From assembly GCA_029547705.1 (NCBI GenBank), contig JAKPOU010000038.1:1-64000 (forward strand): a DNA stretch of 64,000 bases. The letters are read 5' to 3'. The notes under the pieces are model-generated. The model saw only the letters and a list, made by a program, of their open reading frames with translations. It was not told the DNA's origin and ran no database searches. The stretch's first letter is position 1, and each line of letters starts with the position of its first letter. Both the position numbers and the translations under genes were made by a program. This document shows, in pieces, positions 2,977 through 17,896 of the stretch. This stretch comes from Bacteroidota bacterium (GTDB lineage: Bacteria; Bacteroidota; Bacteroidia; Bacteroidales; VadinHA17).

Positions 2977-5148
2977 TTATTGTGTTTTTACGGTATGAAC
3001 CTGTTTCAATGAATTGATTCCCGGACTGAGTTCAAATGCTTCCCTGTCAGGAAGAATGAGTCTGCCCTTCATATTGGCAGGGATGTTTACCGTATAAACG
3101 GATGATTTCCCCTTGGCCCTGAATTCCGCAACTATTTTTCCCCTGATCGTGGGCACTTCAATTTTACTGTAGGTCAGGCCGCTGAGCTGAGGTCTGATGG
3201 TAACAGCAGCGAAACCGGGTTCTGCAGGGGCAATACCCCACATATAGCCGGGAATGATATTTGCAGGTACTGCTCCCCATGCATGGTTCCAGTCGGAATT
3301 GGGTTTGTATTTCATGTCCCAGGCCTCCATCGCCATTGTGGATCCGGTCCTTATCATGTTCCACCAGCTCCTGTCGTGGGTTGCATTCATCAGACTGACT
3401 GCATATTCCGCTTCGCCTTCCCTGAACAATCCCTCCAGCAGGTACTGGGCTCCGTAAACACTGCATGCCATTCCCCTGGATTTGATAAACTCAATGACGC
3501 TTTTTCTGTACTCCGCGGGAATGATTCCGAAAGCCAGGGGCATCATGTTGGCATGAAGCGATGAATGTTCCGAATTCTCACCATCGAGGTAAATACCTTT
3601 GGACCGGTCGAGCAGTTTTTCATTGATTGATTTCCTTACCTTTTCCGATTCCCTGCGAAAGAATGCAGAGTCATCTGTTTTCCCGAGGATCCCGGCTATT
3701 TCTGACATGAGAAACAGATTACGGTAATAGAATGAATTTACCACAGTATTGATTTCAACCATGTCATATCCGTCTCTTTCGCCTTCCGGACCGGCAAGCT
3801 TCCAGCCCGTATCCTTCTGTGCCGGCGGCCAGTCAACAATATCGCGTATCCTTTCCCCCGGGTCTGAAAAACCGATATCCTCCATAATCCGGTCAGTTGC
3901 ATTTTTTGATGAGATCAGACCATCTTCCCTCGCCAGGGAAATGAGGGTTTTGTGCCGGAGCTCCTCATAGTATTCCCTGAGTGATTCGGGATTCCCGGTG
4001 AACATGTAATCGTTCCAGAACATCAGTACTGTGTGAAGTATCCACTCGGTAGGCCAGGTAGGATGTTTTATAAAATATTCGTTTGTAAGCCTTCCCATTG
4101 AATATTCCCTGTCGGTGTAATAGTGCCCCAGCTGATTTATATAGGCATCGGCTTCATAGGGGATCCTTTCCCTGTCGCCGTCAATATAAATCCCCGCAAA
4201 TGATGTGGCCTTCATGGTATATTTGCACATATCCCACACCTGGTTCAGAATAGTATCGGAGCAGGTGAAGCTGCCCGCACCGTCATCAAAAAAATAACTG
4301 GTTACTTCCTGAACAAGGTTGTTCTTTTCGAGCCTGAAGCTGCAGTTTTCAATCTCTGCATAGCGGAAAGGTGCAATGATGCCGAGTGAATCGGGAAGAT
4401 GTACGGCTGAGGGCCCGGTATTCCTTTCATCCGGAGGCAGTTCTGCGGTGAAAGAATTTTGTCCGGGTTTCAGGGGGATTTTTACTCTGTAATAACGTAT
4501 TGTTCCCCCGGGATTACGGTCAACAGTGTTTGCTGCGGCAAGTTTTTCCCCCAGGTGGACAGTCAGGGTATCGGCTATATCAGGACTGATACCGGTAATA
4601 ATAAGTTTTCCGAAGGCATCCTTTCCGAAGTCTGCAAAATAATGACCTTCACTGATCCTTGTCAGCTTCAGGGGATGTATTGATGACGAACGGAATTTGT
4701 TGGCAGTAGTGGCATAGCCCGCCGGATTTCCGGTTGTAAAAGACCGGATTTCCGAGTATCCGGCCGGTCTGTCCTTTTCATCCCATATCCTTACTTTCCA
4801 GAAGTACCTGCTGTCAGGCGACAGGAGAGGTCCTCCGTATTCCACCTCACACGATGCCGGAGCGATCATTTTTCCGCTGTTCCAGATATCTGCAATATCT
4901 TTTTCAAGCTTTTCCCTGCCCGAGGATACCAGTATTTCACAGGCAGTCTGGTTTTTTGCATGCAGCGGCACTATCCATGTAAATTCCGGCCTGAGATCCA
5001 TTATCCTGACTCCTTCCGGATCGCGGATGAATTCTACCATCAGTTCTTCCGGAACCTGCCGGTTGCTGCAGGCCGTCAGCACCAGAAAAGCTAAGGGCAG
5101 AATTCCGCGGCAGAAGTGAAAAAAGAGATTCAATGTTTTAAACGGCAT
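2977..5148 (-). CDS. GH78 alpha-L-rhamnosidase, lipoprotein
   Basis: A 723-residue protein with a lipobox (LVLTAC, Cys27). An N-terminal Fn3-like module follows (PEFTWIV..., SRYFWKVRIWDE), then a jelly-roll region and an (alpha/alpha)6 barrel. DGDRERIPYEAD at 323-334 corresponds to the GH78 general-acid segment (usually DCPxRxERLGW), and MEAWDMKY followed by SDWNHAWGA near 615-630 matches the catalytic-base region. GH78 enzymes release terminal alpha-L-rhamnose by inversion. The protein is shorter than the roughly 900-residue enzymes because the N-terminal carbohydrate-binding part is reduced, and its acid motif has Gly-Asp-Arg in place of Cys-Pro-x. That places it in a divergent GH78 subgroup. 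It lies between the fusion gene (32-base gap) and the oxidoreductase. Confidence 0.85.
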   Translation of the reverse strand: MPFKTLNLFFHFCRGILPLAFLVLTACSNRQVPEELMVEFIRDPEGVRIMDLRPEFTWIVPLHAKNQTACEILVSSGREKLEKDIADIWNSGKMIAPASCEVEYGGPLLSPDSRYFWKVRIWDEKDRPAGYSEIRSFTTGNPAGYATTANKFRSSSIHPLKLTRISEGHYFADFGKDAFGKLIITGISPDIADTLTVHLGEKLAAANTVDRNPGGTIRYYRVKIPLKPGQNSFTAELPPDERNTGPSAVHLPDSLGIIAPFRYAEIENCSFRLEKNNLVQEVTSYFFDDGAGSFTCSDTILNQVWDMCKYTMKATSFAGIYIDGDRERIPYEADAYINQLGHYYTDREYSMGRLTNEYFIKHPTWPTEWILHTVLMFWNDYMFTGNPESLREYYEELRHKTLISLAREDGLISSKNATDRIMEDIGFSDPGERIRDIVDWPPAQKDTGWKLAGPEGERDGYDMVEINTVVNSFYYRNLFLMSEIAGILGKTDDSAFFRRESEKVRKSINEKLLDRSKGIYLDGENSEHSSLHANMMPLAFGIIPAEYRKSVIEFIKSRGMACSVYGAQYLLEGLFREGEAEYAVSLMNATHDRSWWNMIRTGSTMAMEAWDMKYKPNSDWNHAWGAVPANIIPGYMWGIAPAEPGFAAVTIRPQLSGLTYSKIEVPTIRGKIVAEFRAKGKSSVYTVNIPANMKGRLILPDREAFELSPGINSLKQVHTVKTQ

Positions 5149-5180: not shown

Positions 5181-8100
5181 TTATTTCCGGGCAATTCTGA
5201 GCAATTTCATTTCAAAGGGTTTGAAATATACCGCCCGGTCTGTTCCGGCAGTACTTGTTTTTGCGGTGAATGGGTCAATCCATTCCCTTGTATTTCCGGT
5301 ATTCTTAATGTCATTTTCAATTTTCAGGCTGATGTTTGCAGTTACTTCGGAATTTTCCTCATTGAAGAGCATGAAGTAATGATCCCCGTCTTTTTCCACA
5401 TGGCGGCAGCGTATGTTTCCTGAAGAAGGACTCAGGACGATGTCGGGCGGGGTGATTTTGTTTACTGCAGCCCTGAGTTCATCCCCGCTTCCGTAAACCA
5501 GTGCCCCGTTGCAGACGGATGCAAGTTTTGAGTCACTTCTCAGGATGAGGTGCCTGTGCCTGGCCAGTTTCTTAAGTTTAGGAATCACCCTGGGGGGAAT
5601 GAATGAAAGGCTGTCGACTATAAGTGCCCTGTAAGTCATGTCCCCTATATGGATTCCCCTGGAATCAATCTTTGCGTCTTCCCACAGATGGCGGATTTCA
5701 AGGTAGTTGAAATCCCGCTGGTTCCTGTACAGTACTTTTGCCGGCCTGTCAGGCAGCCAGGTGGCTTCGCAGAGTATTGCAAGGTCGCATATATGCCGGG
5801 AATCGGTATTCAGCCAGCTTAATCTGCGGCAGGCATCGGCATAGGGTTTATAATCCGGCCACCAGGATGCATTCGGCCCCACATCAGGCGGACGCTCATC
5901 AATTCTTGGACCCCGGACCGAATAGAAAAAGGCATGGGGAATGAGCAGGTTATGACCTCTTACAAAACACCAGCCGGCAAGCCACAGCATCTCTTCCCAG
6001 GTGAGCTCATGGCCGTAGGCTCCGTAAAGCTCATTTGAATTCCGGCGATAACCGTTGTGGATCATTGCACTTGAAGCACCCTTGGCCATAGTTGAATGTT
6101 GTCCCTCCAGGGCTTTCGGCCCCGGTTCAACATATCTCCATACGAGGTCCTGGCCGGGGATCTGGAAATAACGCTGAGTGCCTATGTCCATTGATCCGGC
6201 CGGATGTCCCATAAGAGATATGTTATGAAGGAAGCACCAGTTGCCCAGTCTCCTGTAATAGTTTTCCTCAAGGCATATGTTGATGGCATGGTAATAATCG
6301 GTCCTGTGCCGTTCTGAATCAGGATAGTCGTTATACCAGAGGTCTGCCAGATGGGGGGTAATGTCATATCCCAGTATCTTTTTAATACGCGGAAGGAGGG
6401 ATGCATTTCCCGGAACCATTCCCCTCAGGGCATCCCTTCCGAGCGGAGAGGGTTCATCGGTAAAGATTCCCATGATGGTATTCCCGAAATATTTCCCGAA
6501 TTCCCTTGCATATTTATCATATACAAGTGAAATGAAGCTTGACACTGCATCCGGGTTGAGGAGGTCACCCGCGGGCGGGGAATGTTCGAGAAGCCTTTCC
6601 TCGCCCTCATTCAGGTAATGAAGACCCCGGATTACCCCTCCGGAGGGGCGTTCTATGATAGCCGTGCGTCTGTTTCCGGGCCGCTGGGCAATGGTTACAA
6701 GCTTCCAGCCTTCTTCCAGCCGGAGTTCTTCTCCTTCCTTCAGATCGATTTTTGCCAGTCCCCTGGCTGCATGTTCCGGATTTTTTTCCACAACCTGTCC
6801 GGAAGATGAGCCCGAAGGATACATTCCCTCGTCATAGAGTATAACATACATATTGCGGCGGGCTGCTTCGCTTATGGCAATATTCATTGCATGGATCATT
6901 TCGGGTCCGAGCCATTTCACATTCTGAGGCAGACCGACGCGCGGGTGAATGACAAAACCATAAACTCCGTGGGATTCAAAATCAGCGATCTGCCGGATGA
7001 TTTCATCATCTTTCAGGGTATCATTCCAGAACCAGAAGGGCATAACTGAAAATTCGCGCGGAGGATCAACAAGCTCCGGGGGCAGTTTCTGTCCGCCTGC
7101 TGTTCCGGTTTCGGACAGCATACGGTATGAATCTTCAATATAGTCATCCAGCCAGCTGTAAAACCGGCCAATGCCTTTTTCATCCGGTATCATGCCGGGT
7201 GCAGAGCGGATCAGTTCATCCGCCTTTTTGAATATTTCATTCTCGAAAGATTCGAGCAGCTGTAAGATTCCGGTGTTCCGGCCGTTCAGAAGTGCCGCAA
7301 GATTCAGATATTTCGTCCCGGATCCTCTTTTTACCGGGAAGCATCTGTCTTTCAGCCTGAGTGCCGCGTCGCACAGCGGGGAATGAAGATCATCCTTCAT
7401 ACTCACCGCTGCCGGAAGGATTTTATCTTTTGTCAGCCAGACGGGCACAACGGCAGTTGTGAGAGGAAAGCCGCATAAAGTCCACATTACCGTGCCTGAG
7501 GGATCTTCACCCGCTTTTGTACCAGCAACACAGATAGCAGATGCGGAGGAATACCTGGGAATGAAATCCTCGAAAAAAACAAATTTCTCCCGTTCACTGT
7601 CTGCCGGGAGTACATCCCGGAGATTGACATCCGTAAGTGAATGATAAAGATTGCGGGATATGTTTGATATGAGATACTGCGGATCGTACCTGTTCATTGC
7701 AGCTGCCCTGTAAAGGGCTTCATTTGCCGTTGAGTACCTGATGTAGCCGAATCCCTTGTCGACAGGTCCGGTAAAGGCATGGTTTGTCCTTATAAGATAG
7801 CCGTAGGGTGCCGCTGCAGCATCATTGGCATCTATCTTTTCAAAGCCGTAATTTCCCGTTTCAAAATAGGCGGCTCCTCCGAGTGCGTCTATCACTCCGA
7901 AATTGGTATCAACACCCAGGGGCTTCGGAAGTTCTGCCAGGAGTTTTTCAAAATCGTCCACGGTGGCACAGTTCTGAAGGGCAAGTTTCATGATCCTTCC
8001 TTCCTGATCGGCCAGGCCGGTGGTATCACCGATGTTCTTGTTATAGGCGACAGAGTTCATTATTGCAAACCCTGCAGAATTGAATCCTCCCCATACTTCA

Positions 8101-8324
8101 TTGTTCCAGTTTTTATCCGAATTCAGCAGACCCACGTAATTATATTTTCCGTCACTGAAAACTGCCAGGGCATTGTCAGTAACCCCGGTGTCGCGGTGCT
8201 TGTACAGGATTGGCCTGCTATCGGGAGTATATCTTCCTGAAATAATAAAAGTGGTACATGCTTCACTGAAGTTTGTAAATCCGGATATCAGGAAAACTGC
8301 AAATATGAAGAGATGCTTTTTCAT
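5181..8324 (-). CDS. Fusion: secreted C45-type Ntn hydrolase + GH106-like glycosidase
   Basis: This is one uninterrupted 1047-residue frame. Residues 1-22 are a signal peptide ending SEA. Cleavage exposes Cys23 (CTTFIISG), the expected N-terminal nucleophile of C45/penicillin-V-acylase-like Ntn hydrolases (carcinine hydrolase / isopenicillin-N acyltransferase family). WGGFNSAGFAIMN at 78-90 and LIRTNHAF at 177-184 also fit that fold, which ends near 400. From about 413 a second enzyme begins. PPREFSVMPFWFWND and GVYGFVIHPR lead into YDEGMYPSG (497-505), FTDEP (621-625) and NELYGAYGHELTWEEM (764-779), as in GH106-like TIM-barrel glycosidases. A short beta domain closes the protein. The first half would cut amide or acyl bonds and the second a glycosidic, perhaps rhamnosidic, bond. 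The joint function is inferred; the fusion itself is seen directly. Confidence 0.8.
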   Translation of the reverse strand: MKKHLFIFAVFLISGFTNFSEACTTFIISGRYTPDSRPILYKHRDTGVTDNALAVFSDGKYNYVGLLNSDKNWNNEVWGGFNSAGFAIMNSVAYNKNIGDTTGLADQEGRIMKLALQNCATVDDFEKLLAELPKPLGVDTNFGVIDALGGAAYFETGNYGFEKIDANDAAAAPYGYLIRTNHAFTGPVDKGFGYIRYSTANEALYRAAAMNRYDPQYLISNISRNLYHSLTDVNLRDVLPADSEREKFVFFEDFIPRYSSASAICVAGTKAGEDPSGTVMWTLCGFPLTTAVVPVWLTKDKILPAAVSMKDDLHSPLCDAALRLKDRCFPVKRGSGTKYLNLAALLNGRNTGILQLLESFENEIFKKADELIRSAPGMIPDEKGIGRFYSWLDDYIEDSYRMLSETGTAGGQKLPPELVDPPREFSVMPFWFWNDTLKDDEIIRQIADFESHGVYGFVIHPRVGLPQNVKWLGPEMIHAMNIAISEAARRNMYVILYDEGMYPSGSSSGQVVEKNPEHAARGLAKIDLKEGEELRLEEGWKLVTIAQRPGNRRTAIIERPSGGVIRGLHYLNEGEERLLEHSPPAGDLLNPDAVSSFISLVYDKYAREFGKYFGNTIMGIFTDEPSPLGRDALRGMVPGNASLLPRIKKILGYDITPHLADLWYNDYPDSERHRTDYYHAINICLEENYYRRLGNWCFLHNISLMGHPAGSMDIGTQRYFQIPGQDLVWRYVEPGPKALEGQHSTMAKGASSAMIHNGYRRNSNELYGAYGHELTWEEMLWLAGWCFVRGHNLLIPHAFFYSVRGPRIDERPPDVGPNASWWPDYKPYADACRRLSWLNTDSRHICDLAILCEATWLPDRPAKVLYRNQRDFNYLEIRHLWEDAKIDSRGIHIGDMTYRALIVDSLSFIPPRVIPKLKKLARHRHLILRSDSKLASVCNGALVYGSGDELRAAVNKITPPDIVLSPSSGNIRCRHVEKDGDHYFMLFNEENSEVTANISLKIENDIKNTGNTREWIDPFTAKTSTAGTDRAVYFKPFEMKLLRIARK

Positions 8325-8330
8325 AGTTTA

Positions 8331-9539
8331 TTAGGCTTGAGTTTTAAAGTTAAGGCTTTTTCCTTCCCTGCGGAAATAAACCCAGAGATAAACCGAAGAT
8401 AGTATATATGAAATATTAACAGCAATGCATACGCCTTCCATCTGGAATGCCTTTATCAGAAAGGGCATGGATATAATTATTGCCAGAAGGCCTATGAGTG
8501 ATTTGTTCCTTATTATGTTCAGCTTTCCCGTTCCGGCAAAGTAATGTCCATAGAGGTTCGATACGGAGATTGCCATTATGCCCGGTATCATGTACAGAAT
8601 ATATTTTCTGACGATACCGAATTCAGCCCCGAAGACCAGCTGATATACTTTCACCGGAACAAGAACGGAAACTGCCAGGACAGCAATGCTGATTATAAAG
8701 CTTTGTCTTGCGAAAGCGACTGTCTCTTTGCGGCTTCTGATGAAATCATTGCTGTTGATGACATTGGAATAATGAACTGCCGACATGCTCCGGCTGATAA
8801 TCCAGACTGCCTCAGAAACGGAAATTACTACCGAAAAAATCCCGAGCTGTACATATCCGAGAATCCGTGCAATGAAATAATATGAAAGGCGGTATGAGAG
8901 GAACTGTAGCAGATAATTGAATTCATTTTTAAAACCGTAGTTCAGTATTCTCTTAAGGTCAGCAGTTTTCAGACCGGGCCTTTTATACGGATTTCTTCTC
9001 AGGAGGCTTGTCAGTGCGAAGAGGGAGACTGATCCCGTACCGATATACCAGGCATGGTAATAAGTTTCAAGACCTGTTTTATGCAGCAGTGCATACAGTA
9101 TGTATAAAAAGATGAGTATGGACAGGGGGTTCAGCAGGGTAAGCAGGTTGTATCTCACAAAATCTTTTTTCCCCAGCCGGTATGATGTAACGAGTGTTGA
9201 AAGTGACAGGAAGAAGGACATTGGAAGCAGAAAGGTGAAATTCCTGAATCCGAAAAGCAGCGAAAAGAACAGCGAACCTGTAAGGGACACAAGAAGAGCT
9301 CCGGCGGATCCCGCTGTCAGGAGAATATCCCTGTTCATTACCGGTGTATGGAAAGCTATTGTACTTCCGCAAAACACATTTCCGAATATGGCTATTATTG
9401 AAATGTTTGCCAGCAACAGGGCTATTTCGCCCCTGCCTTCACTGCCCCACAGCCTGGTACTGGCAACCACAAGGGCAAAGTTGGCCGCCAGAATCAGGAA
9501 TTTGGTAACGATGGTAATTGACGTGTTCCTGGATAACAT
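8331..9539 (-). CDS. Polysaccharide flippase (Wzx/MATE-like, oligosaccharide exporter family)
   Basis: A 402-residue integral membrane protein with about 12 hydrophobic segments. It opens MLSRNTSITIVTKF, and ASTRLWGSEGRGEIALL is the usual first-helix signature of O-antigen/teichoic-acid flippases, which move undecaprenyl-linked sugars across the inner membrane. The frame can be extended to 9680, but that would overlap the glycosyltransferase gene by 134 bases. The Met at 9539 leaves a 7-base gap and starts exactly at the conserved segment, so it is preferred. It sits between a GT4 gene and the Ntn-hydrolase/glycosidase fusion (6-base gap), an unusual neighbourhood for a biosynthetic flippase. 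Confidence 0.8.
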   Translation of the reverse strand: MLSRNTSITIVTKFLILAANFALVVASTRLWGSEGRGEIALLLANISIIAIFGNVFCGSTIAFHTPVMNRDILLTAGSAGALLVSLTGSLFFSLLFGFRNFTFLLPMSFFLSLSTLVTSYRLGKKDFVRYNLLTLLNPLSILIFLYILYALLHKTGLETYYHAWYIGTGSVSLFALTSLLRRNPYKRPGLKTADLKRILNYGFKNEFNYLLQFLSYRLSYYFIARILGYVQLGIFSVVISVSEAVWIISRSMSAVHYSNVINSNDFIRSRKETVAFARQSFIISIAVLAVSVLVPVKVYQLVFGAEFGIVRKYILYMIPGIMAISVSNLYGHYFAGTGKLNIIRNKSLIGLLAIIISMPFLIKAFQMEGVCIAVNISYILSSVYLWVYFRREGKSLNFKTQA

Positions 9540-9546
9540 TTCAAGA

Positions 9547-10728
9547 TTATTTATCAGCGGCTCCCGTGCGGGAAGCTGCATTAATAACGAATTTAACAAA
9601 CTCTGAACTGATCCTTCCCCAGTTATACTTTGTCTCGGCCAGATTTCGTGCTTCATTGCAGTGACGGCAGTATAAGTCACTATTCTCGAGATATTCCGAA
9701 ATCAGTCTGACAATCATTTCAGTATCACCGGGTTTGACGAGGAATCCGAATTTCTCCACTTCCACTTCTTTTCTGATTGCCTTAAGGTCAGAAAAAATCA
9801 CCGGTCTGCCAGCTGCAGCATAATAAAATAATTTTATGGGAAGGCAATGTTTATTTTCAGGGTCATCACTTCTGAGATCGAGGAAGATATCAGTTTCATG
9901 CAAACTCCCGGTATATCCGGCAAAATCCTGTTTTCCCTTCATGATGAAAGCAATATCCGCATTCACGTTTTTCAGGTATGTTTCGCATTCTTTCCTGTCA
10001 TCATCCGTTTCGAACCAGCCTGTTATTTTCACCTCAATCTCAAGATCATGGTGAACAGCCGAAAGGCCGTCTATGACACTTATGAAATTCACAAATCCCT
10101 TCTCCCGGCTTATTTTCCCTGAATAGGAGAGCCTTAGTTTCCCGTCGGCCGGCTCGGGTTTTTTAAATTCAATGTATTTAAGATCAGGATAGTAGGTTGA
10201 GAAAATGAATGGTCTGAAAGGGAAAAGGAATCTGTAAGGTCTGCTTTTATAATATTCACCGAAAATAAACGCATCGGCCAGTGCTGAGGATAATATATTG
10301 AAAAACAAAAGTTTGATAAAAGTGATGTATTTGCAGAAAGCTCTTTTCCCGGCCAGGTTTTTCTTTGAAGGATACCATTCGGTAATATCATAGATTATTC
10401 TGATCCTTTTTTTACTCCCGTGTCTGAATAATCTGCCTGCCAGTACCGTAAGAGGTTCTGAACATATCAGTACATCCGGATTGAACTGCCTGAGGGTTTC
10501 GGTGAATTTCCTTATTTTTTCCCTTTTAGTCATGGATCCCCCGTCGAAGCAGTTCAGGATCATTCCCTCAGCGGAACAGTCAGTATCTGTTTTAGAGGAA
10601 ACAATCTGAACAGGGAATCCTTTTTCTGCCAGGGTTCTGCCCTGATGATAAAAAATCCTGTCGTCATCAGGAAAGTGTCCGGATGTGACAAATGAAATCC
10701 TCAGGTTTTTCTTCGGGGTGCCTGTCAA
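9547..10728 (-). CDS. Glycosyltransferase family 4 (GT-B fold)
   Basis: A 393-residue protein with a GT-B plan. The N-terminal acceptor domain begins RISFVTSGHFPDDDRI. The linker and donor domain start near LRLSYSGKISREKGFVNF, and the GT4 signature region reads LPIKLFYYAAAGRPVIFSD, then EKFGFLVKPGD. GT4 enzymes are retaining transferases that use nucleotide-sugar donors at the cytoplasmic face. The E-x7-E motif is degenerate: the first Glu position is Leu-Pro-Ile-Lys-Leu-Phe. It precedes the flippase by 7 bases, so the pair looks like a fragment of a surface-glycan assembly module carried inside a degradative operon. The sugar donor cannot be told. Confidence 0.8.
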   Translation of the reverse strand: MTGTPKKNLRISFVTSGHFPDDDRIFYHQGRTLAEKGFPVQIVSSKTDTDCSAEGMILNCFDGGSMTKREKIRKFTETLRQFNPDVLICSEPLTVLAGRLFRHGSKKRIRIIYDITEWYPSKKNLAGKRAFCKYITFIKLLFFNILSSALADAFIFGEYYKSRPYRFLFPFRPFIFSTYYPDLKYIEFKKPEPADGKLRLSYSGKISREKGFVNFISVIDGLSAVHHDLEIEVKITGWFETDDDRKECETYLKNVNADIAFIMKGKQDFAGYTGSLHETDIFLDLRSDDPENKHCLPIKLFYYAAAGRPVIFSDLKAIRKEVEVEKFGFLVKPGDTEMIVRLISEYLENSDLYCRHCNEARNLAETKYNWGRISSEFVKFVINAASRTGAADK

Positions 10729-12190: not shown

Positions 12191-12889
12191 ATGAAGCTTA
12201 AGCACGTCTTTAAAACTGTATTCAGGAGAGTATCCGCAAGAATACGGTCCGGACCACTCAAAGGGAAAAAATGGAGTATTGCCTCGGGTTCCAGATTCAT
12301 CAGAGGTGATTATGAGTCGTACAAAACCAGAGCCTTCCTGGATAATTTCGAACCGGGAAGCATATTCCTGGATATCGGGGCACATTTCGGATATTATTCC
12401 TCGATGGCTGCAACAGTCAGCAGGGGGGAAGGATGGATCTATTCACTGGAGCCGAGACCGATGAATATTAAGTTTTTCAGGCGGCATATTGAAATAAATG
12501 ATTTCAGGAATATCACCCTGATTGAAGCGGCAGCCGGCAGGTATGACGGATTTGTCCGTTTTGACAACCGGCACGGTTCCGCAACAGGTTTTGTGACAGG
12601 AGATGGAAACCTGAAAGTTGAACAGGTATCTGTCGGCGGACTGATAAAACGGGGCGTGATCCGGCCGCCTGATTTTATAAAAATAGATGTTGAGGGTGGT
12701 GAGATGGAAGTGCTTGCCGATCTGGAGGAATTCATTTCACGGGAACATCCGAAAATGCTTGTTGCCACTCATGGGAAGGAATGCAGGGACTTCACGGAGA
12801 ATTTTCTGAGGAAAAATAAATACAGCTTCAGGGTTCTTAATCCTGAAGCTGTATCAGGTGATACGGAAATCATTGCAATTCCCGTGTAA
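12191..12889 (+). CDS. FkbM family methyltransferase
   Basis: A 232-residue class I SAM-dependent methyltransferase. The SAM-binding motif appears as FLDIGAHFGYYS at about 58-69. YSLEPRPMN (about 84-92) carries the acidic residue for the ribose, and DFIKIDVEGGEMEVL (about 158-172) is the FkbM-specific segment. FkbM enzymes O-methylate sugars or polyketides. The gene is transcribed alone on the plus strand, divergent from the FucP operon, and ends 13 bases from the convergent YceI gene. Methylation of a surface glycan made with the nearby GT4 and flippase is possible but only inferred. Confidence 0.8.
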   Translation: MKLKHVFKTVFRRVSARIRSGPLKGKKWSIASGSRFIRGDYESYKTRAFLDNFEPGSIFLDIGAHFGYYSSMAATVSRGEGWIYSLEPRPMNIKFFRRHIEINDFRNITLIEAAAGRYDGFVRFDNRHGSATGFVTGDGNLKVEQVSVGGLIKRGVIRPPDFIKIDVEGGEMEVLADLEEFISREHPKMLVATHGKECRDFTENFLRKNKYSFRVLNPEAVSGDTEIIAIPV

Positions 12890-12902
12890 TTTGTTATGGC
12901 TA

Positions 12903-13481
12903 TCAGTTCAGATGCAGATTCACCCTGACCCTGAATTCGTCATAAATCGCTTTATCGCCAAGATTCTCGAAAAATGAACCGGAACCATAGCGTACATTAT
13001 ACTTGGACCGGTCGACAATGATAAGGGCAAAAAAGCTTGTTCCTTCATTATTCTTTTGCATTGTGGCGCTGAATTCAACCGGATGTGTTATCCCCTTGAT
13101 AGTGAGATGGCCCTTAACCAGACCCTTGCCCTTGTCAAAAGCTTCGCTTTCCAGGATCACAATTTTGGACAGAGGGTGTTTGTCCACTCCGAAGAAATCA
13201 TCAGATTTCAGATGACCCTCAAGTCTTTCATTCGAATCGTCATCCTTAATTGTTGTCATATCAATTGTAAATTCTCCGGAGGTAATTCTGTTGTTATCAA
13301 AAATAATCCAGCCATCCCTGAGGAGAATCGTTCCGGTATGATGACCGAGGACTTTCTCCCCATGCCAGTTCAGAGTGGTTTTCCTGACATCGGCATTCAT
13401 CTTTTCCTCTGCATTGGTAGGAGTATTCATAAGCAATAAAATAAAAAAAGTTAATAAAAACGGTTTCATAACATTCATCAT
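12903..13481 (-). CDS. YceI family periplasmic lipid-binding protein
   Basis: A 192-residue protein with a signal peptide (FFILLLMNTPTNA, cleavage near 24). The YceI beta-barrel pattern follows: TLNWHGEKVLGHHTGTI, GEFTIDMTTI, LEGHLKSDDFFGVDKHP, and GHLTIKGITHPVEF. The family binds isoprenoid-type or other hydrophobic ligands in a lipocalin-like barrel in the periplasm, and several members are linked to stress. Both the F-x-V-D-K-(H/Y)-P segment and the GITHPVEF segment are intact. It is the last gene on the minus strand here, 88 bases after the SDR gene, and may be co-transcribed or independent. Confidence 0.85.
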   Translation of the reverse strand: MMNVMKPFLLTFFILLLMNTPTNAEEKMNADVRKTTLNWHGEKVLGHHTGTILLRDGWIIFDNNRITSGEFTIDMTTIKDDDSNERLEGHLKSDDFFGVDKHPLSKIVILESEAFDKGKGLVKGHLTIKGITHPVEFSATMQKNNEGTSFFALIIVDRSKYNVRYGSGSFFENLGDKAIYDEFRVRVNLHLN

Positions 13482-13569
13482 TTGATTTCAGGAATTAACA
13501 GAATATTCGTGAAAATGTTCAACAAGTATTTCTGCCCGTGGCCGAATAATCTGAAGGTCAGTATTCCTG

Positions 13570-14352
13570 TCAGAGCCGGGTGATATTAAGGCCACCGCTG
13601 ATATCGAATATTGCTCCGGTTGAAAAATCCCAGTCTCCCCGTGCGAGAGATGCAACTGCCCTGCCGATATCTTCCGGATAGCCCCACCGTTTCTGGGGAA
13701 CCATGCCGTCGGCAATCAGTTTGTCATATGTATCCTTTACCCTGGCAGTCATATCGGTATTGATAATGCCGGGCCGGATTTCAAACACCCTGATATTGTC
13801 AGCTGCAAGCCTGTCGGCAAAGACCGAGGAAGCCATGCTCAGACCGGCTTTGGAAATGCAGTATTCCGCCCTGTTGACAGATGTCCTGGTGGATGATATT
13901 GATGAGATAAAGATGATTGCGGGTCTGTAGTCTGAAATCTGCCGGCCGAGATAAATCATTTCCCTGGCGATTCGCTGGGCAAAAAAGACGGGGCCTTTCA
14001 GGTTTATGTTCATGACTCTTTCATAGCTCTCCTCGGTCATTTCGAGGAGGTCGTTACGTTTCAGGGGAGCCACGCCCGCATTGTTTACAAGCAGGTCTAT
14101 CCTGCCATATCGCCCGAGAATGTTCTTAACAACTTCATCCTGGCAATCCGTGCAGGCGATGTCAAGGCCAACGGGGAAAAACGCAACATTTTTCGCTGTT
14201 ATTTCCCTTGCAAGGGATTCCATACCTTCGCTCTCCACGGTACGGGCGATAGCGGCAATATCAAACTTTTCAGATGCCAGGGAAATTGCAATTGCTCTCC
14301 CGATTCCCCTGCTGGCACCCGTTATGACAGCTACAGGTTTATTATTCATCAC
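13570..14352 (-). CDS. Short-chain dehydrogenase/reductase (3-ketoacyl-ACP reductase-like)
   Basis: A 260-residue classical SDR. It has TGASRGIG at 11-18 for the dinucleotide, NNAG at 90-93, the catalytic Ser near 151-153, and YCISK giving Tyr164 and Lys168. RPGIINTDM after the active site is also typical. Many proteins of this kind are annotated as 3-ketoacyl-ACP reductases, but in sugar clusters they usually oxidise or reduce sugar or uronate carbons (KduD-like). Its place behind a Gfo/Idh enzyme, a sugar isomerase and a GH88-like hydrolase favours a sugar substrate. The 83-base gap to the upstream gene allows a shared transcript. Confidence 0.85.
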   Translation of the reverse strand: MMNNKPVAVITGASRGIGRAIAISLASEKFDIAAIARTVESEGMESLAREITAKNVAFFPVGLDIACTDCQDEVVKNILGRYGRIDLLVNNAGVAPLKRNDLLEMTEESYERVMNINLKGPVFFAQRIAREMIYLGRQISDYRPAIIFISSISSTRTSVNRAEYCISKAGLSMASSVFADRLAADNIRVFEIRPGIINTDMTARVKDTYDKLIADGMVPQKRWGYPEDIGRAVASLARGDWDFSTGAIFDISGGLNITRL

Positions 14353-14435
14353 TGGCTGAATTAGCAGGTTTAATTTAGGTTATCAGGACCTAAAGATAAT
14401 AATTGTGGTGAATTACCACAAAACGGGCCTGATTA

Positions 14436-15587
14436 TCATTTTTTCAGTTCCGGTATTTCTGTCCAGCAGCGCTTTTTCCAGCTTTCCATACCTTTTTCCG
14501 CAAGCTGCACTCCTTTGGCACCTTCATGAAGATCCCAGGGAAAGGGTTCATCTTTCACCACATGCTTCAGGAAGAGCTCCCACTGTGCCTTGAAGGCATT
14601 GTCATAATTCTCCTGCTCCGGCACCCTTGACCAGCCCTCAAAAAAGTCAATCGGCTGGGGAATGTCAGGATTCCATACAGGTTTGGGAGTGTTGCCGTAA
14701 TGCTGGATATAGCATTCCCTGAGTCCGGCAACTGCAGATCCCCTTGTTCCGTCAACCTGAAGGGTGAGGAGGTCATCGCGGCGTACCCTTACGGCCCATG
14801 AGGAATTGAAATGTGCAATAATGCCGTTTTCAAGTTCGAAGGTTGCATAGGCGGCATCATCGGCAGTGCACTTATAGGCTTTGCCTTCCTCATCGAACCT
14901 TTCCGGTATGTGGGTTGCTCCAAGGCATGATACAGCTTTTACTTTTCCGAAAACATTGTCAAGGACATATCTCCAGTGGCACAGCATATCCAGTATAATA
15001 CCGCCGTCGTCCTCGCTGCGGTAATTCCATGAAGGTCTTTGTGCCGGAATGGTTTCTCCCTCAAACACCCAGTATCCGAATTCCCCCCTTACGGAAAGGA
15101 TCCTTCCGAAGAATCCCGTTTCAATAAGCCTTTTTAGTTTCAGTATTCCCGGAAGCCAGAGTTTATCCTGTACCACTCCGTTTTTTAGTCCGGCATCCCT
15201 GCATAATTCATATAGTTCGAGGGCAGCCTCCGTGCTGATGGCAACAGGTTTCTCACAGTAAATATGCTTTCCCGCCCTGATGGCCTTTTTAACGGCATCA
15301 ACCCTTCTTCCGGTTGTTTGTGCATCAAAATAAAGCTGGTAGTTCCTGTCCTTCAGTACTTCATCCAGATCGGTACTCATTTTTGAGATTCCGGAAATGT
15401 TGCAGAGGTTTTTCAGCTTTGTTTCGTTCCGTCCCACCAGGATGGGATCAGGCATAATGGTTTCTGAGGATCCGCATTTTACGCCTCCCTGTCTGATTAT
15501 CTCCGCAATTGAGCGGAGAAGATGCTGGTTTGTGCCCATTCTGCCGGTCACTCCGTTCATGATTATTCCTACGGTATGCTGTTTCAT
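14436..15587 (-). CDS. Gfo/Idh/MocA family oxidoreductase (383 aa)
   Basis: An NAD(P)-dependent sugar oxidoreductase of the glucose-fructose oxidoreductase / inositol dehydrogenase family. The N-terminal Rossmann domain starts VGIIMNGVTGRMG, a more open variant of GxGxxG. HIYCEKPVAIS carries the family EKP motif at 112-114. The C-terminal alpha/beta domain contains GGIILDMLCHWRYVLD, with the conserved Asp and His expected at the active site. No signal peptide is seen, so it is cytoplasmic. The genes upstream (TIM-barrel isomerase, GH88-like) and downstream (SDR) make a sugar or uronate oxidation step likely. Confidence 0.85.
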   Translation of the reverse strand: MKQHTVGIIMNGVTGRMGTNQHLLRSIAEIIRQGGVKCGSSETIMPDPILVGRNETKLKNLCNISGISKMSTDLDEVLKDRNYQLYFDAQTTGRRVDAVKKAIRAGKHIYCEKPVAISTEAALELYELCRDAGLKNGVVQDKLWLPGILKLKRLIETGFFGRILSVRGEFGYWVFEGETIPAQRPSWNYRSEDDGGIILDMLCHWRYVLDNVFGKVKAVSCLGATHIPERFDEEGKAYKCTADDAAYATFELENGIIAHFNSSWAVRVRRDDLLTLQVDGTRGSAVAGLRECYIQHYGNTPKPVWNPDIPQPIDFFEGWSRVPEQENYDNAFKAQWELFLKHVVKDEPFPWDLHEGAKGVQLAEKGMESWKKRCWTEIPELKK

Positions 15588-15680
15588 GGTAAATTAATTT
15601 GATATGATGTTATTTCTGCTGTCTGATTCATTGGTCCCTGCCGTGAGCCAGTCCGGAATAAGGCTCCGGTGGCAATGCTG

Positions 15681-16514
15681 TCATACATATTTTTTGTATG
15701 AGGAAACTATATCCTGCAGGAAGGAATGCTGATCCCGGCTCCAGTATATATCTGAAAAGATTTCCACTTCAATGAATCCGCTGAATCCGCTGTCTTCCAC
15801 CCAGGATCTGATTTTCTTCAGGGGAATGCATCCCTCACCCATCAGTCCCCTGTCATTAAGCATATCCACGGTTGGCGATTTCCAGTCGGATACATGATAG
15901 GCAAACAGCTTTCCGTTTTTCCCCGAGCGCTTTATTTCCTTTTCCAGATCCGGGTCCCACCACAGGTGATATACGTCGACTGCCACCCCCGCTGAGGGAC
16001 TTTCAAGTATTTCAGCAAGATCATTTGCCTGGGCAAGGGTGTTGATTGCCGAGCGTGTATCCGCGAACATCGGATGGAGAGGTTCGATTGCCAGTCTGAC
16101 TCCTGCGGATTCAGCATCAGGAAGGACTGATGCTATTCCGTCGTGTATCTGTTTCCGTGAATCTTCAAGAGACTGTGAGGGATCTGCCCCGCAGACCAGG
16201 ACAATCAGGTCTGTTCCCAGTTCATGAGCTTCTTCAATTGCTTTGCGGTTGTCATCTATTGCGGCCCGGCGCCTGGCTCTGTCGGCTGAAGGGAAAAAAC
16301 CTCCCCTGCAGAGAGAGACTATGGAAAGACCGTGGTCCCGCAACATCCTGCCGGTTTGCCGTATATCCCTGCCAGCCAGGGTGTCCCGCCATACTGTAAT
16401 ACCTTTTACGCCTGCAGAGGAGAAATTTGCGGCAATTTCCCCGATATTCCATGGTTTTACGGTTATGGTGTGGATACAGAGCCTCTGAAGGTCAGTGATT
16501 GGTTGTAAATTCAT
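15681..16514 (-). CDS. Sugar phosphate isomerase/epimerase-like TIM barrel (AP endonuclease 2 fold)
   Basis: A 277-residue xylose-isomerase-like TIM barrel. The metal ligands expected for the family are visible as LAIEPLHPM (Glu), VAVDVYHLWWDPD (Asp and His), FAYHVSDWK (His) and FIEVEIFSD (Glu). Members interconvert ketoses or, as shown for some Bacteroidetes and soil homologues, act on 3-keto sugars and glycosides. The gene's start overlaps the end of the GH88-like gene by four bases, giving a start/stop overlap and strong translational coupling, so its product almost certainly works on the hydrolase product or a related sugar. Confidence 0.8.
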   Translation of the reverse strand: MNLQPITDLQRLCIHTITVKPWNIGEIAANFSSAGVKGITVWRDTLAGRDIRQTGRMLRDHGLSIVSLCRGGFFPSADRARRRAAIDDNRKAIEEAHELGTDLIVLVCGADPSQSLEDSRKQIHDGIASVLPDAESAGVRLAIEPLHPMFADTRSAINTLAQANDLAEILESPSAGVAVDVYHLWWDPDLEKEIKRSGKNGKLFAYHVSDWKSPTVDMLNDRGLMGEGCIPLKKIRSWVEDSGFSGFIEVEIFSDIYWSRDQHSFLQDIVSSYKKYV

Positions 16515-17896
16515 CCTGTATAGCTGAAGAAATTATAATATGTTTCATTACTGATGATTCTGTGAAGATAGAGGCAGGCTTCCCGTATGTGATAGTCTCC
16601 CCACATGCTTGATTCCCCGTTGGGTATTTTGCTGCCTTCCGGAATGTGATCCCATCCGTTGGGCCTGTGGTAAACCGAATGCAGGAGAAGCCCCTGATGC
16701 TCTTCCCCGGTGCTCAGATAAGGTTCACTGAGAAGTGAATCAAGCACTTTCAGTCCTGCCTGCCAGTAGCGGCTTCCGGAATAAACATCCCCCTTCTGCT
16801 TCAGAAAGTGCCCGAGGCGCAACAGACCCTGGGCAGCTATGGCTGCAGCCGAGCTGTCGACCGGTTCATATTCATTGAAGGGATCTGAAGGCTTGTTCAG
16901 GTAATCTTTCAGATAAACAAGCCCCGGAGCCCCGGTGTCCCAGTAGGGGACTCCGTCGGAAGGACTGTTTTTTATATAAAAATCGCATGTGACCCTGGCT
17001 GCCCTGTCAATGATTTTTTCAATGTTATTCAGATCTGCGGGATGATCCGTTCCTTCCCTTTTCAGAAAATCTATCCATTCAAGCTGTTCGGAGAATCCGC
17101 AGACAGCCCATGCCAGTCCCCGGGTCCATGTTGTAAAACCGGTATAGCCCTGCTGTGAGGACGGGCAGCGGAAACTTCCGTCAGCAGGATTAAATACAGA
17201 TTCATGTGCAGTACGTCCGGGTTCAGTATCCCATATATCACGTCCCTCGCCATAATAAACCGAATACCTGGCAGTGGACTTCAAATGTTCAAGTGCGCGT
17301 TCAAGCAGGCTGATCCTGATATCACCCTCAGCCTGAAGAACATGGCCGAGACGGTGGGCAATCATCAGAATGCGGCAGCTTCTTATGGTATCGACAAACA
17401 ATGAATGGGCACCGTTAAAGGAGTAAATATATCCGCCATCCCTGATGGCAGTCCACCGGCTTGCCTGAACGGCTCCTGAAACTTTGAGAGCCAGTTCGCA
17501 GAAATTTTTCTCCCATTCGCTGAAGGGAATTTTGCCTTCATTCATCAGTCTCAGAAGATTCCCGTAAGTGCTCACATTGTTGAAACCATGGTCATGAACT
17601 CCCGTATGGCTCACATGAGGGGCCATCTTCCTGACTGTCTTTTCCCTGGCATAATCCAGCATCTTTTTATCTCCTGTGGCATCAAACTGGAGGAAGGCTG
17701 ATCCGTATTGAAATCCCTGGGTCCATTCGGTCCAGCCCCTTGTTGAATATCTGCCCTTTACCGTAAACACGGGTGAACCCTGGGATTCATCATAGTATTT
17801 TTCAATCAGGTTGATTTTCCGTCCGGAAATTTCCCAGAATCCGGCAAGCTTGTCTGACAGATCAGCCGGGTTTAATTTTTTTTCAATGCTTATCAT
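16511..17896 (-). CDS. GH88-like unsaturated glucuronyl/galacturonyl hydrolase
   Basis: A 461-residue (alpha/alpha)6-barrel protein. HDHGF at 101-105 and FVDT at 167-170 fall where the two catalytic Asp residues of GH88 enzymes lie (Asp88 and Asp149 in the Bacillus enzyme). WTRGLAWAVCGF and the late SSAAAIAAQGLLRLG segment are also typical. GH88 enzymes hydrate the C4-C5 double bond left by polysaccharide lyases, freeing a 5-keto-uronate. No signal peptide is visible, so it probably acts on imported oligosaccharides. It heads the run of isomerase, Gfo/Idh, SDR and YceI genes. No polysaccharide lyase is present in the window to make its substrate. Confidence 0.8.
   Translation of the reverse strand: MISIEKKLNPADLSDKLAGFWEISGRKINLIEKYYDESQGSPVFTVKGRYSTRGWTEWTQGFQYGSAFLQFDATGDKKMLDYAREKTVRKMAPHVSHTGVHDHGFNNVSTYGNLLRLMNEGKIPFSEWEKNFCELALKVSGAVQASRWTAIRDGGYIYSFNGAHSLFVDTIRSCRILMIAHRLGHVLQAEGDIRISLLERALEHLKSTARYSVYYGEGRDIWDTEPGRTAHESVFNPADGSFRCPSSQQGYTGFTTWTRGLAWAVCGFSEQLEWIDFLKREGTDHPADLNNIEKIIDRAARVTCDFYIKNSPSDGVPYWDTGAPGLVYLKDYLNKPSDPFNEYEPVDSSAAAIAAQGLLRLGHFLKQKGDVYSGSRYWQAGLKVLDSLLSEPYLSTGEEHQGLLLHSVYHRPNGWDHIPEGSKIPNGESSMWGDYHIREACLYLHRIISNETYYNFFSYTG

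Follow-up and report, generated by a model that had tools for sequence, protein, structure and literature searches.

Are two exported enzymes that normally stand alone really joined in one protein in Bacteroidales, how were they joined, and do they act on one substrate? These questions are raised by a gene in a 64,000-nucleotide stretch of DNA (here referred to as the window; positions 1 to 64,000 of contig JAKPOU010000038.1, assembly GCA_029547705.1, Bacteroidota bacterium), which encodes a signal-peptide-like stretch, a cysteine N-terminal nucleophile (Cys-Ntn) hydrolase and a glycosidase resembling glycoside hydrolase (GH) family GH106 in a single chain. An earlier reading of the letters alone (the original prediction) had placed a reading frame of 1047 amino acids (aa) at 5181–8324 without stating its strand; the frame does exist, lies on the minus strand and is open throughout its 1047 codons, and the plus-strand translation of the same interval contained many stops. 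We consider it likely that the gene arose by a recent, single fusion of an exported amidase gene to a GH106-like gene set, with both halves probably keeping their ancestral activities and with no proven shared substrate. The fused protein is a new domain architecture built from known kinds of enzyme and is probably bifunctional; a literature search, at the level of titles and abstract openings, returned no description of this architecture.

Domain composition of the fused protein

For the analysis, residues 1–402 were taken as the N-half and residues 413–1047 as the C-half. PF03417 matched the whole protein just above its cut-off (24.8 bits vs 23.2) and the N-half alone with 27.2 bits, and it matched 30 of the 40 members of the N-half alignment at E ≤ 0.01. 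That alignment held BLAST matches with at least 330 residues covered and frames of up to 460 aa (38 rows, plus the two fused proteins, that of the window and that of a second genome, G052); both half alignments were built without loci L156, L037, L100 and L111 and without short pieces. The model of the N-half had a mean predicted local distance difference test score (pLDDT) of 92.3, and Foldseek returned 104 PDB matches at E ≤ 0.001, headed by the C69 dipeptidase 5img (E 4.6e-11) and followed by CV2077, penicillin V acylases, bile salt hydrolases, isopenicillin N acyltransferase and acid ceramidase. Judged by title, the best 50 of the 104 matches were Cys-Ntn enzymes or their mutants, except 3gvz (CV2077), the title of which carries no enzyme name. 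Sequence searches of the PDB returned nothing, either with the single protein or with the Ntn profile. The Cys-Ntn hydrolases around PF03417 carry the MEROPS labels C45, C59 and C69.

Cys23 lies directly behind the signal-peptide-like stretch, which ends in S-E-A, and it was invariant in all 40 rows, the window's own included, as were Arg44, Asn82 and Asn181, with Asp45 found in 39 of the 40. An Arg, an Asp and two oxyanion Asn are described for bile acid hydrolase in PMC3289653, and Arg44, Asp45, Asn82 and Asn181 could be their counterparts, as paired by order and conservation. The lipobox pattern used fitted 2 of the 40 rows and failed on the window's S-E-A-C, so lipoprotein anchoring via Cys23 was rejected; the residues preceding Cys23 appear to fit signal peptidase I better. 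This suggests that the N-half would be activated by signal peptidase rather than by autoproteolysis. The N-half is best compared with the PF03417 acyl-CoA:6-aminopenicillanic acid acyltransferase and related Cys-Ntn hydrolases, which it resembles in its Pfam match, in the Cys at its predicted mature N-terminus and in its fold, whereas it differs from them in that its Cys would be exposed by removal of a signal peptide and not by self-cleavage, in that a glycosidase follows, and in a score under the NCBIfam C45 proenzyme cut-off (NF040521, 38.1 bits vs 85).

In the C-half alignment (BLAST matches with at least 500 residues covered and frames of 560–760 aa; 50 rows plus the two fused proteins), PF17132 matched 39 of the 52 members at E ≤ 0.01, and among six GH-bearing relatives scanned singly four (L063, L097, L100 and L111) were above its cut-off and one (L054) below. 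The family profile of the C-half ranked the solved GH106 rhamnosidases first in the PDB (6q2f, E 2.1e-7; 5mqm and 5mwk, 7.5e-6). The model had a mean pLDDT of 91.2, and the same three structures took ranks 1–3 in Foldseek (E 3.4e-25 to 4.6e-22, with 3.4e-25 for 6q2f and 1.8e-22 for 5mqm), well ahead of GH42 and others. Glu765 was invariant (52/52 rows) and was profile-aligned to a Glu of RHA-P (6q2f), which we take to be the catalytic general base of that enzyme. In its profile and fold matches and in this Glu the C-half is like the GH106 alpha-L-rhamnosidases BT_0986 and RHA-P, and it is unlike the solved GH106 chains in its length (~640 aa vs 1038–1055). The pair D623-E624 was likewise invariant; according to PMC6828813, the Asp-Ser of BT_0986 is replaced by Asp-Glu in the Ram106B rhamnosidases and in the Niabella enzyme. 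Compared by that description only, the C-half would resemble the divergent Ram106B/GH106_dist group, and where the acid Glu461 and the Ca site of BT_0986 are concerned its pair would fit, by motif, the Ram106B variant rather than BT_0986. A weak NCBIfam match to the rhamnosidase model NF049897 (17.7 bits vs a cut-off of 1300) and a sub-threshold Melibiase_C match were not used.

The GH106-like family is large and was found under record titles from many phyla. In the window's own genome (G000), four other genes (contigs C21, C27, C38 and C59) were above the PF17132 cut-off in a search that did not return the fused gene. In two relatives of the GH half titled as Clostridiales or Clostridia (L100, 6069–9833; L111, 1163–4141), S-layer homology domains precede the glycosidase, and the enzyme there is thus probably anchored to the cell surface.

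Several claims of the original prediction were borne out here. It had proposed a chain of two enzymes, an Ntn hydrolase and a GH106-like barrel in residues 413–1047, and this two-part make-up agrees with the Pfam, profile and fold matches: PF03417 above cut-off and Cys-Ntn folds for the first, PF17132 in 39 of 52 alignment members and GH106 ranked first by profile and fold for the second. Structure prediction of the two halves, which it had proposed as a check, gave confident models with Cys-Ntn and GH106 fold matches. Its placement of Cys23 right after the signal-peptide-like stretch also holds and is kept in 40/40 rows, with cleavage there being predicted from the sequence.

Reality, spread and origin of the fusion

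A full-length fusion with 86% identity was found in G052 (L034/L161, JAAYKX010000287.1, titled as a Bacteroidales metagenome-assembled genome), which was separately assembled, and the two joints were identical in structure, with no indel. The window genome is in 70 contigs and 93% complete, which could favour an assembly artefact, whether a missed stop, a frameshift or a chimeric contig; a second species with the same joint and no frameshift rules this out in practice, and the missed stop or frameshift that the original prediction had suspected near 7080–7130 is accordingly very unlikely. An internal restart at an ATG, giving a separate glycosidase, was also rejected (ATG only considered), as the ATG of residue 402 in the window is TCG in G052.

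The original prediction had stated that the halves normally stand alone, and apart from G052 all relatives examined had them unfused; its worry that homologues might always be split is answered by that one further species. Within the genus (58 genomes, G000–G057), 2 genomes had the fusion; counting this pair, close relatives of the GH half were present in 16 genomes and those of the Ntn half in 7. No fusion beyond these two was found among 98 genomes (the window's own included), among 395 genomes of the phylum searched with the whole protein (30 with a match; up to 2 candidates scored in each) or among 79 genome_contigs loci (best 80 of 119), and no further fusion to a GH was found among 393 genomes of the order searched with the N-half (79 with a match); these draws overlap and all are samples. 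The fusion is real, apparently single and recent, and limited in spread.

The search of the order with the N-half also gave four other matches with frames above 460 aa (775, 525, 506 and 482), of which the longest, in G276, was the one looked at. It corresponds to a relative of the Ntn half (L156, 7736–10033; 766 aa) with a C-terminal GATase_3/BPL_N-like part, below cut-offs, and a HEAT-like part. Like the fused protein, it is an Ntn relative (37–38% identity) with an added C-terminal part, but this part is glutamine-amidotransferase-like and HEAT-like, with no glycosidase.

How the two genes were joined can be followed through a third genome, G012. In trees of the separate halves, the window and G052 formed one clade (support 99/96 for Ntn and 100/100 for GH), and G012 was the sister of this clade in both (100/99 and 97/93), a branching order that fits one event. 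G012 has a free-standing Ntn gene (75% identity), and its surroundings keep the order of the window with the flippase-like (81%), glycosyltransferase family 4 (GT4; 70%), major facilitator superfamily (MFS; 85%), FkbM (69%) and YceI (63%) genes; the exception is a GH43-like gene, which in G012 separates GT4 from MFS and which the window lacks. GH78 and flavin adenine dinucleotide (FAD) genes follow the GH106-like gene of G012, which lies on other contigs with different genes at the 5′ side. At the DNA level, the Ntn contig of G012 matched the window over the Ntn gene and on its flippase side, and not on the other; the sequence past the 3′ end of this gene therefore differs. In G052, with the shared joint, the flippase-like and GT4 genes were absent.

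The joint of the window reads ...SYRMLSE-TGTAG-GQKLPPELVDPPREF, and the free GH of G012 reads ...GQKIPDEFTDPPREF after a signal-peptide-like stretch; in the free-standing Ntn gene of that genome only a few residues remain beyond the matching point. The joint thus runs from the last part of the Ntn gene through a small number of new residues into the counterpart of the mature GH start (GQKLPP), and comparison with the free genes of G012 indicates that the last residues and the stop of the amidase and the signal peptide of the glycosidase were lost there.

From this we infer that, recently and in a Bacteroidales lineage, a rearrangement put the GH106-like/GH78/FAD-oxidoreductase set directly behind the gene of an exported Cys-Ntn amidohydrolase, and that an in-frame loss, which took away the last residues and stop codon of the amidase together with the signal peptide of the glycosidase, fused the amidase gene to the first gene of the set. 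The single chain would be exported by the signal peptide of the amidase, and signal peptidase would expose Cys23, in which case the amidase half would need no more processing and would have to stay N-terminal. Both halves, with their ancestral activities probably kept, would then act side by side in the periplasm, and the likeliest effects of the fusion would be shared export, dosage and promoter. It offers a clean example of two exported enzymes becoming one, with one stop and one signal peptide lost, in frame in two species, and both halves still under selection afterwards.

Constraint on both halves and the question of one substrate

Between the window and G052 (NG86), nonsynonymous (dN) and synonymous (dS) divergence were 0.092 and 0.60 over residues 23–402 (dN/dS ~0.15) and 0.059 and 0.667 over residues 413–1047 (dN/dS ~0.09); over the joint (403–416; 14 codons only) they were 0.50 and 0.45. 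Both halves are under purifying selection. At columns conserved in at least 90% of the unfused rows (69 for Ntn and 166 for GH), the two fused rows deviated at 3 and 1 positions in the Ntn half and at 1 and 2 in the GH half, compared with 0–21 and 0–32 in the unfused rows. With dN/dS low and deviations few, both enzymes look kept, and a degenerate Ntn half is not borne out.

Several findings weigh against a fusion of two retained enzymes as set out here. PF17132 missed the window's own C-half in the protein scan, in the scan of the half and in the PF17132 search of the window's genome, so that the domain search proposed in the original prediction succeeded for PF03417 and failed for PF17132 in the window's half; the GH part of L037 also had no PF17132 match. 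The Foldseek matches of the N-half were partial (query TM-score 0.31–0.57, identity 10–15%, in the best 50 of 104), and the amide substrate cannot be read from them. No biochemistry for either half was found in the literature. The assembly of G012 is fragmented, its GH gene being cut by contig ends, and the selection estimate comes from one sequence pair. Moreover, the tree paths from the window to G052 and to G012 were 0.23 and 0.40 for Ntn and 0.18 and 0.49 for GH, which hints that the Ntn half changed somewhat faster than the GH half after the fusion. Perhaps the Ntn half is then a passenger, its promoter and signal peptide used for the export of the glycosidase and its amidase activity incidental or fading. 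The dependence of the GH, which has no signal peptide of its own, on that of the Ntn gene would agree with this, as would the hint from the path lengths and the higher dN/dS of the Ntn half (0.15 vs 0.09); but a dN/dS of 0.15 is itself strong constraint, and the deviations of the Ntn half at conserved columns are inside the unfused range, so we regard a passenger as improbable.

The original prediction had also read the fusion as pointing to one substrate in which an amide bond and a glycosidic bond occur together, and this step is unsupported: the genes are unlinked in the relatives examined and their co-occurrence is weak. Within the flanks available, many of them short, the Ntn gene was found in 0 of 78 other GH loci, and the GH gene in 0 of 16 hand-picked unfused Ntn loci (two of these being contigs of less than 7 kb). 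Both genes co-occurred in 5 of the 58 genus genomes (Fisher p = 0.014), and in 3 of 56 (p = 0.09) once the fused pair was removed, both values being uncorrected for kinship and genome incompleteness. It is possible that both halves act on one shared substrate. That this would carry an amide (or acyl) and an alpha-L-rhamnosidic bond, with the fusion selected for channelling, we consider unlikely: the conservation of both halves since the fusion and the weak co-occurrence in the genus speak for it, whereas the missing linkage, the loss of the association without the fused pair and the recurrent GH neighbours, which are GH78 and an FAD oxidoreductase, speak against it, as does the occurrence of Ntn-half relatives in 79 of the 393 genomes drawn from the order, most of them from families in which no GH was seen. 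Slightly more doubtful still is a self-contained periplasmic amidase-rhamnosidase with a single glycoconjugate as its substrate, from which it would take off both an alpha-L-rhamnosyl cap and an N-acyl (amide) group; a bacterial exopolysaccharide or a rhamno-glycan bearing amides would be examples. Since a glycosyltransferase gene and a flippase-like gene precede the fused gene in the window, even a polymer made by a related bacterium could be that substrate. If true, a shared substrate would point to a glycan chemistry of which we know no description.

The gene set around the GH106-like gene

The C-half would most likely remove alpha-L-rhamnosyl (or related) caps together with GH78, judging from its family, and the GH106-like/GH78/FAD-oxidoreductase set is a more useful lead than an amide-plus-glycoside substrate. 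Among the 78 other GH loci (L035–L112, with L055 and L092 being one gene in pieces), a GH78 gene with at least 59% identity was present in at least 9 and the FAD oxidoreductase in at least 9, these counts being lower bounds owing to the short flanks; three further GH78 matches (20–37% identity) were uncounted. All loci counted for GH78 or FAD genes were among the 20 titled as Bacteroidota, and none among the other 58. The GH106-like family thereby gains a genomic context in Bacteroidota.

One relative of the same genus carries another fusion (L037, 5323–8898, the same as L159, in G008). Here the same GH106-like domain (70% identity) runs at its C-terminus straight into a PF12831 FAD oxidoreductase, and the GH78 gene is missing from between the two. 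This fusion joins genes that are near neighbours in other loci, whereas the fusion in the window joins genes that are elsewhere unlinked, and it hints at a joint function within the GH106-like/FAD gene set.

Table 1. Features of the fused gene and its neighbours in the window
Feature	Position	Strand	Basis
Fused gene: signal-peptide-like stretch, Cys-Ntn hydrolase and GH106-like glycosidase, 1047 aa	5181..8324	-	Open reading frame; equal architecture in G052/L034
Signal-peptide-like residues 1–22, S-E-A end before Cys23, type I-like	8259..8324	-	Sequence; pattern speaks against lipobox
Cys-Ntn hydrolase domain (PF03417-like), residues 23–402	7119..8258	-	Pfam, alignment, model, Foldseek
Cys23 codon, predicted N-terminal nucleophile	8256..8258	-	Alignment
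Fusion joint, residues 403–416	7077..7118	-	DNA comparison; dN ~ dS
GH106-like glycosidase domain, residues 417–1047	5184..7076	-	Profile, Pfam of relatives, model, fold
Glu624 codon (TDEP motif), 52/52 rows; candidate catalytic or metal-site residue	6453..6455	-	Alignment; motif vs PMC6828813
Glu765 codon (NELYG motif), 52/52 rows; candidate general base	6030..6032	-	Aligned to Glu of RHA-P (6q2f)
GH78 alpha-L-rhamnosidase-like gene, recurrent GH106-like neighbour in Bacteroidota	2977..5148	-	Pfam, locus comparison
FAD-dependent oxidoreductase (PF12831), recurrent neighbour; fused to GH106-like domain in L037/L159	1299..2945	-	Pfam, locus comparison
Flippase-like membrane protein (named by eye, without Pfam match), 6 bases upstream of fused gene	8331..9680	-	Order equal in G012

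As called (GTG start), the flippase-like frame and the GT4 frame share about 130 bases (9547–9680), and the true start of the flippase-like gene is probably further downstream. On the upstream side, the window holds genes of carbohydrate use at 12191–17896, which were Gfo/Idh-like and sugar isomerase-like by eye, with a GH88 match below cut-off; the upstream genes were named by eye except GH88 and FkbM.

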